A stretch of DNA of 64,000 nucleotides, from NCBI RefSeq assembly GCF_002162315.1, contig NZ_CP021416.1, positions 2,678,207 through 2,742,206 on the forward strand, given 5' to 3'. This stretch comes from Sulfurospirillum diekertiae (lineage in GTDB: Bacteria; Campylobacterota; Campylobacteria; Campylobacterales; Sulfurospirillaceae). This document shows positions 47,334 to 51,551 of this stretch, piece by piece. The first letter of the stretch is position 1, and the number at the start of each line of letters is the position of its first letter. Below the pieces are notes generated by a model that did not search any database, was not told the origin of the DNA, and saw only the letters and a program-made list of their open reading frames with translations. Position numbers and translations under genes: made by a program.

Positions 47334-47846
47334 ATGTCCGTTCCTATCAAAGAAGGGAAACTACTTTATCACTTAACTTCTCTGTCAAATATCGAATCAA
47401 TTTTATTGAACGGCTTGCAATCTAGAGCTATTGTAACTAATTTTAAAGACATTGCTGATCCAGATATTGTCAAATTTAGGGATGAAAACAATATTTTAAA
47501 TTCGGTACCATTTCATTTTTTTCTAGGGTCGCCCTTTGCAGGTAGAGCACAAATGAATAATCCTACTGAAGAATTCATTTATATTACTATTCATAGAGAT
47601 ACAGCAAAAAAAAGCAATTTTAAAATTATTCCTACGCATCCAAAGCATATGAATCCTTTAAAAATTTATAATTATGATGAAGGTTTTAAAATAATAGATT
47701 GGGAATTAATGGAGACTAGAAAATACGATAATCCTGAATGTAAGGAAGTATGTATGGCAGAATGTATTTCACCATCATCTGTCATTCAAGCAGACCAATT
47801 TCACTCAATAATTGTTAAATCTGATGATGTAAAAAAAGCATATTGA
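47334..47846 (+). CDS. darT: DarT-like DNA ADP-ribosyltransferase toxin
   Basis: 170 residues, DUF4433/DarT family: modifies thymidine in single-stranded DNA with ADP-ribose from NAD+, halting replication. Visible family features: YHLTSLSNIESILLNGLQSR at the N-terminus, the IADPDIVKFRDEN region followed by VPFHFFLGSPFAGRAQ, and MAECISPSSVI near residue 141, whose Glu matches the catalytic Glu of DarT. Slightly shorter than typical DarT. It is followed at 102 nt by a macro-domain antitoxin. Very AT-rich compared with the adjoining cus operon, a sign of transfer. Assigned from motifs and context. Confidence 0.85.
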   Translation: MSVPIKEGKLLYHLTSLSNIESILLNGLQSRAIVTNFKDIADPDIVKFRDENNILNSVPFHFFLGSPFAGRAQMNNPTEEFIYITIHRDTAKKSNFKIIPTHPKHMNPLKIYNYDEGFKIIDWELMETRKYDNPECKEVCMAECISPSSVIQADQFHSIIVKSDDVKKAY

Positions 47847-47948
47847 AAAGTCTTTTGTGAAAAAACTTTTTCAGCCATAACTGTAAAGCAAAGCTAAACA
47901 TTTTTCATTAATGTTTCTAAAGAATCTTTTAAAAATGGATTTATAACT

Positions 47949-48965
47949 ATGTTACAACTCATCACTGGGAACATCCTATCAAGCAATGCCGACTGTTTAG
48001 TAAATACGGTAAATTGCGAAGGTTTTATGGGGAAAGGGTTAGCATACCAATTTAAAAATCAATTTCCAGAGACAAATAAATCTTATATTGAAGCATGCAA
48101 ACAAAATTTACTACACCCTGGAAAACTACACTACCATATCGAAAATGGGAAATTCATTGTAAACTTTCCAACAAAAGACAAATGGCGTGAAAATTCAAAA
48201 CTCGAATACATTGAAAATGGTATGAAGTCCTTAATTAAGCTTATCAATTCAGAAAATATAAAATCAATAGCAATACCTCCATTAGGGAGTGGTAACGGAG
48301 GATTGCAGTGGGAAGAAGTAAAAAATATTATCTTAAATAATGTAAACCCTCTAATAAACAACATTGACATAACAATCTATGAACCTTCATTATCGTATAA
48401 AGCAACAGTCAAGCAAGTCCCTAAATTAAATATGTCTCATCTCATTTTAATGCATATAAAAAATGATTTGCAAAGATTTTCAAAATTTAGATTGCAAAAA
48501 ACAGCTTTCTTCCTCAACGTTTTTAGCCACAACAATTATTTTAAATTTGAACCACATATCTATGGTCCATATTCTCATTCTTTAGAAATATTGTCTCGAG
48601 ACATAAAAGAATTTCAAGAGTACCATAAGTTTAAAACAGATAAAGCATTAGAATTTGCAAAACAAACTCTTCTTAGTCAAAAAGTGGAAAAAGATTTAAA
48701 AAATTTTATACCATCGATTCAAAAAGCAACTTCTTTTATTAATAATATCTCATCAAATGAAGAACTTGAACTAATATCAACAATTTGTTTTATAGTTTAT
48801 GAACATAGCAGTCTTGATAGCAACTCAATTATTGAAAAAATCCACACATGGTCAGAACTTAAAAAAGAAAAATTTTCAGACAAACAGATTAATAATGGAT
48901 TATCTAAATTAACCGAACAAAATATTTTTCACAAGAATATCTTTGGTGCATTCAGCTTTAAATAA
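47949..48965 (+). CDS. darG: DarG-like macro-domain antitoxin
   Basis: 338 residues. N-terminal macro domain (about 1-150): ITGNILSSNADCLVNTVNCEGFMGKGLA and IAIPPLGSGNGGLQW, which hydrolyse ADP-ribose from DNA. The C-terminal domain has FRLQKTAFFLNVF and FEPHIYGPYSHSLEIL, matching the KxxY-GPYxxxL toxin-binding domain of DarG. It thus can both reverse the DNA mark and bind DarT. Pairing with darT gives a DarTG toxin-antitoxin, a family known to act against phages. AT-rich like darT. Confidence 0.9.
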   Translation: MLQLITGNILSSNADCLVNTVNCEGFMGKGLAYQFKNQFPETNKSYIEACKQNLLHPGKLHYHIENGKFIVNFPTKDKWRENSKLEYIENGMKSLIKLINSENIKSIAIPPLGSGNGGLQWEEVKNIILNNVNPLINNIDITIYEPSLSYKATVKQVPKLNMSHLILMHIKNDLQRFSKFRLQKTAFFLNVFSHNNYFKFEPHIYGPYSHSLEILSRDIKEFQEYHKFKTDKALEFAKQTLLSQKVEKDLKNFIPSIQKATSFINNISSNEELELISTICFIVYEHSSLDSNSIIEKIHTWSELKKEKFSDKQINNGLSKLTEQNIFHKNIFGAFSFK

Positions 48966-49052: not shown

Positions 49053-50297
49053 TCACAATTTTAGCTTACGCAACGGTTGGGGTTCGTTCCAGAGATAGCC
49101 TTGAAAGTAGTCGATTTTCTGCTCTTGGCATGCTTCGTAAATGTCAAAGTCTGAGACAAACTCAGCGACGGTTTCCATGCCCACTTTTTTGGCAAACGTC
49201 ACAATGGCTTCGACGACGGCGCGGTGTGTTGCATTTTTGGTGATATTTCGAATCAAAGAGCCATCGATTTTGATGAAATCCGCTTGCAATTTTGCAACGT
49301 ACTCAAAGTTAGAATAGCCCGTTCCAAAATCATCAATCGCGATTTTAACCCCTTGTTGTTTGATCGTCGTTAAAAACGCAATTACCTCAGGATGATTTTC
49401 GATGTGTTCACTCTCCACCAACTCTATCGTCAAGCGAGAGCCCACCGCGTAGGCATATATCTTTTCTATAATGAAATTTGCCGTCTCCTGATCTAAGATG
49501 TCGCTGAGCGTTAGATTGACCGAGAATTCCGCTTCTTTATCAGCAAAAAAGGCAAACGACTTTTCGATTACCACTTTGGTGATGCTGTTGTACAAATTGG
49601 CGCGTTTGGCTTGTTCTAAAAAATGATACGGCGAAATGACACCGCCATTGGTACTTTTCATGCGCACCAAACACTCAAATTTTTTGACTTTTCCACCTTG
49701 AATGCCCTGTGCATACACTTCAAAACGGTCTTTCAACAGTGCTTGACGAATCGCTTTTTGCCACTCCAAATCGGCTCTGGCACTGGAATGGGTTGGTCGA
49801 CACAACGTGACACTGGATGAGTCATAAACCACGATGTCTTTACCGATACGTTTGGCTTGTTTGATGGCAAATTCGGCATTGAGAAACAGGTCAACATAGT
49901 CGATGGCGACACCCATACGAATCGCTACGTAAATTTTTTCCTCTTCAATCTCAATGGGCGAATAACCAAAATACCACATACACGCATTGATAGCTTGTAT
50001 AAACGCCTCTTTACCGACTTCTTTACCCGCAAGAACGGCAAAATTATCGCCACCTAAGTGGAAAACAACGGAGTGTGGAAAGCGTTTTTGAAGCCTCCCA
50101 GAGATGATTTTTAAGATTTCATCACCAACGGCATAACCAAAAACATGGTTGAAATTCCAAAAGCCATTGACGTTTAAAAGGGCAAGTTTGTTGGCATTGG
50201 AATGTTTCAAGGTATTAAGAAAACGCTGTCTATCGGGCAGTTCCGTTATGGGGCTAATGCGCCCATATGTTAATTCATATTTGATTTCTTTTTTCAT
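49053..50297 (-). CDS. c-di-GMP phosphodiesterase, degenerate GGDEF plus EAL
   Basis: 414-residue cytoplasmic protein. Residues about 15-160 are a GGDEF domain whose active site is altered to HLGGDNF, so it is probably not a cyclase but may bind GTP. The EAL domain (175-410) keeps the catalytic set: FECLVRM (E of EAL), SVNLT (Asn), ELVESE (Glu), IDDFGTGYSN (two Asp), IKIDGSLI (Lys), TVAEFVSD (Glu) and FQGYLW (Gln). Expected to hydrolyse c-di-GMP. No sensor domain. A 22-codon ORF with its own promoter lies 83 nt upstream on the same strand. Confidence 0.9.
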   Translation of the reverse strand: MKKEIKYELTYGRISPITELPDRQRFLNTLKHSNANKLALLNVNGFWNFNHVFGYAVGDEILKIISGRLQKRFPHSVVFHLGGDNFAVLAGKEVGKEAFIQAINACMWYFGYSPIEIEEEKIYVAIRMGVAIDYVDLFLNAEFAIKQAKRIGKDIVVYDSSSVTLCRPTHSSARADLEWQKAIRQALLKDRFEVYAQGIQGGKVKKFECLVRMKSTNGGVISPYHFLEQAKRANLYNSITKVVIEKSFAFFADKEAEFSVNLTLSDILDQETANFIIEKIYAYAVGSRLTIELVESEHIENHPEVIAFLTTIKQQGVKIAIDDFGTGYSNFEYVAKLQADFIKIDGSLIRNITKNATHRAVVEAIVTFAKKVGMETVAEFVSDFDIYEACQEQKIDYFQGYLWNEPQPLRKLKL

Positions 50298-50379
50298 AGT
50301 TCTATCTCTTTACATGTAAAAACGAGTTTATCGTTAAAATGATATTGAATGGTTAGTGTAGCGTGTTAAAATGAAGGTA

Positions 50380-50448
50380 TCAGCAGCAACGCATGAGGCG
50401 TAAAACAAGTGTAATTTTTCCATGTAGTGAGGCACTATAAACGGTCAT
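50380..50448 (-). CDS. 22-residue leader-like peptide ending in Cys-Cys
   Basis: ATG at 50448 has a very good ribosome site (AAGGAG, 7 nt spacing) and lies about 24 nt after the start point of a consensus promoter (50507-50479). The peptide starts MTVYSASLHGK and ends VLRLMRCC. It is on the strand of, and 83 nt ahead of, the EAL gene. Promoter, ribosome site, short length and tandem terminal cysteines together look like a regulatory leader peptide sensing cysteine supply, but no attenuator is obvious and the 50298-50612 stretch holds no other gene. Confidence 0.6.
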   Translation of the reverse strand: MTVYSASLHGKITLVLRLMRCC

Positions 50449-50478
50449 GGTCGAACTCCTTGTTGAAAAATTGCCAAA

Positions 50479-50507
50479 ATAATAGCACAAACACCGTTTT
50501 ATGTCAA
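50479..50507 (-). promoter_or_regulatory. Sigma-70 promoter of the 22-codon ORF
   Basis: On the minus strand TTGACA (50507-50502) and TATTAT (50484-50479) are separated by exactly 17 bp. Transcription would start near 50472. Confidence 0.75.
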
Positions 50508-50612
50508 CTATATCTACCTTTTTAATAATGTATATTTTTCGGGATGCGAAATTTGAATATTTATTATTTCAACAATAAATCGTTATACTTTGATAAACAA
50601 GGAATGTCATTG

Positions 50613-51551
50613 ATGAAATGTAAAAATTTACTTTTAACGTTAGTGCTAACCGCAAGCTCTGTGTTCGCAACGGAAAATGTTCTCCAAAAAGAAGAGTACG
50701 ATTTTGAGGGTTTAACACTTGGTGTTTCCTTATCTCTGTTTAATTCAACCACTAACGAATATCTTTATGATACGGATATCAATAGAAAAGTGAGTCAACT
50801 TGTATGGAAAGCAAAAAATGTCAAGCTATTAGGCGTAGAGACACGCTATAAGATTACGAATCCTTTAGAGGCTTACTTTGAATATAAAAAAAATATTTCA
50901 AGCAATAATAGTGTCATGGATGATTACGATTGGCAGGATGCTGACCCTACGATTGTATCATTGTGGTCACACCACGAAGAGACTAAAAATCCTAATGTTT
51001 CGCTTCTTGATATTGGATTGAAGTATTCTTTGAATTTCTTTGAAGATGTACCCCTCTGGGTTAGCCTTGGGTATAAAGATGAAAAGGCAAAATTTCAAAG
51101 CTATAATGGTTTCGGAATCTATAATGGGAACTATTTCGAGTTTGATAAGATAGGATACGGAGGATTACTGATCACATTTGAGCAAGAGTACAAAGGGCCT
51201 TATATTGGTATGGGGACATCGTACCAATACGATGATTTTATCTTCGATGCTAGCCTACAATACAGCCCATTTATGAACGTTTCCTATACGGATATACATC
51301 ATTTACGCCCTTTTATCGAAACCAGTCATTTTGATGATACATCAATGATTTCCCTCCATCTCGGAACGACCTATCAGCTCAGTACACATCAAAACATCAT
51401 TTTGTCTTATGCTTTGACCCGCTATGCTTTTGAAAGAGGTGATCGGTATAGAATCTTTACCGATGTAGGAGAGGCCTATTATTGGGAAAATATGGCTGCA
51501 CTTAAGAGCAAAAATAGCCAAATCTCCTTAGCCTATCGTTACACTTTTTAG
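50613..51551 (+). CDS. Putative outer-membrane beta-barrel protein
   Basis: 312 residues with a signal peptide (LLLTLVLTASSVFA) and then alternating hydrophobic/polar strands rich in Tyr and Phe, such as YFEYKKNISSNN, LLDIGLKYSLNFF, GPYIGMGTSYQYDDFIFDASLQYSPFMNV and a C-terminal strand ISLAYRYTF ending in Phe, the usual signal for barrel insertion. Family not identified; a porin-like or adhesin-type barrel of about 14 strands would fit. I use ATG 50613 (MKCKN), with AAGGA at 9 nt. It may be a target of the two-component system encoded next. Confidence 0.75.
   Translation: MKCKNLLLTLVLTASSVFATENVLQKEEYDFEGLTLGVSLSLFNSTTNEYLYDTDINRKVSQLVWKAKNVKLLGVETRYKITNPLEAYFEYKKNISSNNSVMDDYDWQDADPTIVSLWSHHEETKNPNVSLLDIGLKYSLNFFEDVPLWVSLGYKDEKAKFQSYNGFGIYNGNYFEFDKIGYGGLLITFEQEYKGPYIGMGTSYQYDDFIFDASLQYSPFMNVSYTDIHHLRPFIETSHFDDTSMISLHLGTTYQLSTHQNIILSYALTRYAFERGDRYRIFTDVGEAYYWENMAALKSKNSQISLAYRYTF

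Follow-up and report, generated by a model that had tools for sequence, protein, structure and literature searches.

A predicted cysteine-type leader peptide precedes a probable c-di-GMP phosphodiesterase gene in Sulfurospirillum diekertiae and is homologous to a leader before a sulfate importer

Amino-acid leader peptides are a known kind of regulatory element, and leader-peptide attenuators are mostly known from genes making or importing the sensed amino acid. In Actinobacteria, leader peptides with Cys runs are described ahead of cys operons, where clear terminators are lacking (PMC1262725). For cysteine genes of Mycobacterium smegmatis, translation attenuation is cited as the mode of control (PMC9094748 and PMC13236596, citing Canestrari et al. 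2020). The Campylobacter jejuni leaders LeuL, TrpL, and MetL show translation initiation peaks by Ribo-seq (PMC3847290, PMC11955535).

The leader described here lies in a 64,000-nt stretch of the S. diekertiae genome (the window; contig NZ_CP021416.1, 2,678,207–2,742,206). It precedes a gene for an EAL-domain protein (the EAL gene), and a c-di-GMP enzyme is an unusual target for such a peptide. A homologous leader in the same genome precedes a sulfate importer operon (sbp-cysTWA); the downstream genes belong to cysteine or sulfur metabolism at sbp and not at EAL. By description, the family resembles the mycobacterial polycysteine uORF and the actinobacterial Cys leaders in its short upstream ORF with tandem Cys codons at the end, its association with sulfur or cysteine genes, and the lack of an obvious terminator. 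The mycobacterial uORFs are leaderless, according to the cited title, whereas the Sulfurospirillum leader has a strong Shine-Dalgarno sequence and one copy precedes a c-di-GMP enzyme. LeuL, TrpL, and MetL, from the same bacterial class, are likewise 20–28-aa peptides with regulatory codons, but they concern other amino acids, precede biosynthesis operons, and are proposed to act by transcription termination (PMC3847290, PMC11955535). The word "cysteine" does not occur in the main text of either paper, and their passages on leader peptides describe no Cys leader. Literature searches on leader peptides with c-di-GMP, and on Sulfurospirillum with leader peptides, listed nothing relevant. It may be that no Cys-type leader has been reported from this class before, as judged from a search that covered few subscription journals. 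The features are as follows.

50479–50507, minus strand: sigma-70-type promoter (TTGACA-17-TATTAT; TG precedes the −10 box), 11/12 consensus positions.
50456–50461, minus strand: leader Shine-Dalgarno AAGGAG, in a block invariant in 12/12 cassettes.
50380–50448, minus strand: leader ORF MTVYSASLHGKITLVLRLMRCC, 22 codons, Cys-Cys-stop end, codons 9–22 strongly constrained.
50298–50379, minus strand: spacer from leader stop to EAL start, 82 nt, C-rich and G-poor (17 C, 7 G).
50305–50311, minus strand: presumed EAL ribosome-binding site (RBS) AAAGAGA, found by eye, adjoining the palindrome TTTACATGTAAA (50309–50320).
49053–50297, minus strand: probable c-di-GMP phosphodiesterase of 414 aa with a degenerate GGDEF (GGDNF) and an EAL domain (Pfam EAL 4e-55, GGDEF 1.9e-10).
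L003 5467–5532, minus strand: sbp leader MKSNFPPIHGNSAHVFCLMCC, 21 codons, same genome as the window.

The earlier note had claimed a promoter with a 17-bp spacer, an AAGGAG site, and a short ORF ending in Arg-Cys-Cys on the minus strand, and all three were located as claimed. TTGACA occupies 50507–50502, the spacer is 17 nt, and TATTAT ends at 50479, 30 nt upstream of the leader start codon; with this distance and the AAGGAG site, the leader does not qualify for leaderless translation. The ATG is at 50448 and the TGA ends at 50380. Two window ORFs of 15–35 codons start 4–9 nt after AAGGAG, and the leader is the only one ending in Cys-Cys. The pattern AAGGAG-N3..9-ATG-N30..60-TGYTGYTRA gave 55 matches over 24 genus genomes. 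Reading frames of 51 were read by script (35 + 16) and the other four were recognized by eye as leaders; only the 12 leaders of the MTVYSASLHGKITLVLRLMRCC/MKSNFPPIHGNSAHVFCLMCC family were in frame.

A c-di-GMP phosphodiesterase gene had also been named downstream, and a GGDEF-EAL gene does begin 82 nt after the leader stop, its activity being predicted. The best solved relative of its product is PA0861. The motifs ECLVR, VNL, ELVES, DDFGTGYS, KIDGS, and AEFV align with PA0861, and we take the aligned residues to be the catalytic ones of active phosphodiesterases. The protein is, as judged from these alignments, a probable c-di-GMP phosphodiesterase. Its GGDEF signature reads GGDNF, which makes cyclase activity unlikely.

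In G001 and G004 as well, by reading of translations, the leader-EAL unit has a response regulator gene opposite it and a YtkA-like gene nearby; efflux genes are also nearby in G004. Two further features, an omptin gene and a DarT/macro pair, are present at the window locus. The omptin-family outer-membrane protease gene (50544–51551, plus strand, Pfam 2.4e-45) is divergent from the leader and was not seen at the equivalent place in G001 and G004. A DarT-like ADP-ribosyltransferase gene followed by a macro-domain gene (47334–48965, plus strand) is a probable DarTG-type toxin-antitoxin pair, absent from the L105 stretch of G004. The 12-bp palindrome TTTACATGTAAA is a highly iterated palindrome. 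It occurs 22 times in the window, where shuffles predict 0.03, and 792 times in the window's genome, with 14 to 792 copies per genome across 24 genus genomes and low counts in G010 (14) and G022 (62).

A DNA search of the same genome with the leader region found one other place, with 70% identity (E 3.6e-4) over the −10 region, Shine-Dalgarno, and leader. This sbp leader lies 61 nt before a sulfate-binding protein gene, followed by two permease genes and a sulfate-ABC-type ATPase gene; the sbp-cysTWA names were assigned by reading translations. The promoter, Shine-Dalgarno, and leader of 12 loci can be aligned together as a single homologous cassette, and TTGACA-17-TATNAT is kept in 11 of them and missing in G001. 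By this alignment the window and sbp cassettes share ancestry. The two leaders are alike in promoter, Shine-Dalgarno, and an HG...V..LM-CC peptide, and unlike in that the sbp leader has 21 codons and no Arg before Cys-Cys. We infer that the sbp cassette is the older one, because it is found in more genomes.

The sulfate-binding gene is present in 8/24 genus genomes, and the LMCC leader occurs in exactly those eight and in 0/16 of the others. Close orthologs of the EAL protein are found in G005 and G004 (96% identity) and G001 (88%), each behind a leader that ends in LMRCC, so that 4/4 genus genomes with this EAL lineage, the window's included, carry the leader. Eleven more distant EAL copies (67–71% identity), including a second copy in G001, are without it; the leader is not general for the EAL enzyme. 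G001 retains its EAL leader although its promoter is not conserved. Inserts resembling repeats are visible by eye directly upstream of the G001 leader, in the promoter's place (L008, before 1330), and also separate leader from sbp in G008 and G012 (L069 and L070 spacers).

A profile of the 12 peptides against 398 genomes of the order gave 12 strong matches (E 3e-11 or better), all in the genus, and nothing convincing outside it (next best E 0.012). Both leaders of S. diekertiae JPD-1 are among the four stretches that a DNA pattern matched in a genome contig collection; the rest are in a Sulfurospirillum MAG and in a MAG carrying the label Proteobacteria, and the leader peptide of the latter is identical to that of G017. 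Over viral contigs the pattern gave 0 matches. Twenty-six sbp homologs were found outside the genus, four of them without a locus. None of the 22 upstream regions examined, two of which had only 109 and 310 nt, held a short ORF with two Cys in the last five. A looser criterion listed MGQTTCTKLCVN (L125) and MMCDMCKKLL (L128). The latter stands behind AAAAGGA, 114 nt upstream of the sbp homolog, and may be an unrelated Cys leader from a different genus. No NCBIfam family matches the leader peptide, and Rfam gave only sub-threshold matches (ALIL 14.6 bits, cut-off 50; ncr982 23.4, cut-off 50). These comparisons mark the window leader as a genuine Cys-type leader peptide that is specific to its lineage and homologous to that of the sulfate importer.

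M1, H9, G10, V15, L18, M19, C21, and C22 are invariant in 12/12 leader peptides, and the putative regulatory codons next to the stop (C21 C22) are thereby kept throughout. Position 17 is Arg in the window and Cys in the other three EAL leaders. Over codons 9–22, 40/42 nt are identical between the window and G001 and 41/42 between G004 and G001, at EAL synonymous differences of 0.58 and 0.64, respectively; other pairs with G005 keep 37–40 of 42 nt. The spacer is poorly conserved between the window and its relatives (43–49 of 82 aligned). Conservation of codons 9–22 relative to the adjoining spacer was significant for window-G001 (p=1.4e-5) and window-G004 (p=2.6e-6) and not significant for G004-G001 (p=0.067). 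Counts of pN/pS over the whole leader showed no consistent synonymous excess. Variation is unrestricted in the first eight codons and nearly absent from the others, so pN/pS alone would not reveal a coding sequence. Synonymous sites are also conserved, so the RNA sequence itself may be important in addition to the peptide. By the nucleotide identities above, codons 9–22 of the EAL leader are under strong constraint. The earlier note had proposed that a frame not conserved in relatives would count against it; frame and Cys-Cys end are kept in 4/4 leader-bearing EAL loci.

A switch is predicted at sbp. In minimum-energy folds at 8/8 sbp loci, letters coding the HVFCLMCC end of the leader pair with the RBS and start of sbp. 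The predicted unpaired fraction of the RBS is 0.06–0.39 in the free RNA vs 0.59–0.75 with a ribosome on the Cys codons (8/8). With a ribosome at the stop it is 0.33–0.73, which blurs the contrast at some loci (0.73 at L071). The cognate duplex was compared with 69 gene starts, a control set that includes the L003 sbp start itself, and 0–5/69 were as strong in 7/8 loci. The exception is L071, where the duplex is weaker and 14/69 were as strong. Loci with spacers lengthened to 129–198 nt (L069, L070) retain the pairing, and the leader side of the helix hardly varies among loci. In these models the sbp pattern fits translational attenuation, in which low Cys-tRNA would lead to a stall and sbp would be translated. 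Cys sensing is well supported for the leader family by the conserved codons and the predicted folds.

The Cys-end letters of the EAL copy do not pair with the EAL RBS as those at sbp do, and the anti-RBS letters of the sbp cassette are changed there. At 4/4 loci the unpaired fraction of the EAL RBS is 0.47–0.64 free vs 0.51–0.68 stalled, and the cognate duplex is no better than at other genes (41–61/69 as strong). Masking of the EAL RBS by the leader Cys end was rejected at 4/4 loci by fold and duplex. Complementarity between leader CUCAUGCG (the LMR codons) and EAL codons 11–14 is visible by eye, and some predicted folds contain this pairing, which was rejected with 18–40/69 controls as strong. 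A pattern scan of window positions 49800–51000 found no intrinsic terminator in the EAL spacer; the G001, G004, and G005 spacers show, by eye, a hairpin that is missing in the window. The excess of C over G in the window spacer (+10) is reached by 4/58 gene-upstream stretches. A C-rich, G-poor spacer would suit Rho, for which this base composition is weak evidence.

The EAL leader is probably functional, presumably through a switch other than RBS masking. The reading we lean towards is that the EAL element is a copy of the promoter-Shine-Dalgarno-leader cassette of the sulfate ABC transporter (sbp-cysTWA), and that the copy is a Cys-responsive leader acting on EAL by a different downstream step. 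The leader would be translated, and scarce charged Cys-tRNA would stall the ribosome on the terminal Cys codons. At sbp, the stall would free an RBS otherwise paired with the Cys-end codons, as in translational attenuation. At EAL, it would most likely raise expression by the different downstream step; the stalled ribosome perhaps keeps Rho off the C-rich, G-poor spacer, the weakest step of the proposal. Sulfur shortage would then lower c-di-GMP through raised EAL expression.

The main rival to a functional EAL leader is that it is a passenger. Only the promoter and start region would matter, the cassette having been copied as a strong or sulfur-linked promoter. The lack of a switch structure at EAL in folds and duplexes, the diverged spacer, and the altered anti-RBS letters favor a passenger, but codons 9–22 are far more constrained than a passenger would be at a synonymous divergence of 0.58–0.64, and G001 keeps the leader despite promoter loss. 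We consider passenger status unlikely. An arrest peptide, in which the nascent HG...V..LM(R)CC chain itself stalls the ribosome in answer to a different signal, with no sensing role for the Cys codons, is improbable. It would account for the non-Cys residues H9, G10, V15, L18, and M19 being invariant in 12/12 leaders. However, CATGG is complementary to CCATG at the leader start in 12/12, so RNA pairing may explain H-G; pairing of the HVFCLMCC letters with the sbp RBS may explain V-F and L-M; and a sulfate importer as target of the sbp leader fits cysteine. Short ORFs are common and the earlier reader had a single genome, but a chance ORF with a Cys-Cys end is refuted by conservation in 4/4 orthologous loci and homology to the sbp leader in 8/8 genomes, and its probability is negligible.

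A Cys-responsive leader copied from sbp is the preferred reading. The earlier note had proposed a Cys-sensing leader linking sulfur status to c-di-GMP. Its Cys-tRNA-sensing peptide is well supported by the frame and Cys-Cys end in 4/4 EAL loci and by the sbp leader in 8/8 genomes, with its predicted RBS helix. Its link from sulfur to c-di-GMP through EAL is plausible, but the sequestering helix is absent at 4/4 loci, no terminator was found, the G001 promoter is not conserved, and the 11 distant copies are without the leader. Switching of the EAL gene by cysteine is plausible from the sequence, and the c-di-GMP link makes a good hypothesis that is one step short. The full account, in which duplication within one lineage of the genus placed a copy of the sulfate importer's Cys-sensing cassette before EAL and Cys-tRNA charging directly sets c-di-GMP hydrolysis via a switch other than RBS masking, is offered tentatively. 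If true, duplication of a small cassette would have rewired a nutrient sensor onto a second-messenger enzyme, and sulfur supply may tune a lifestyle signal.
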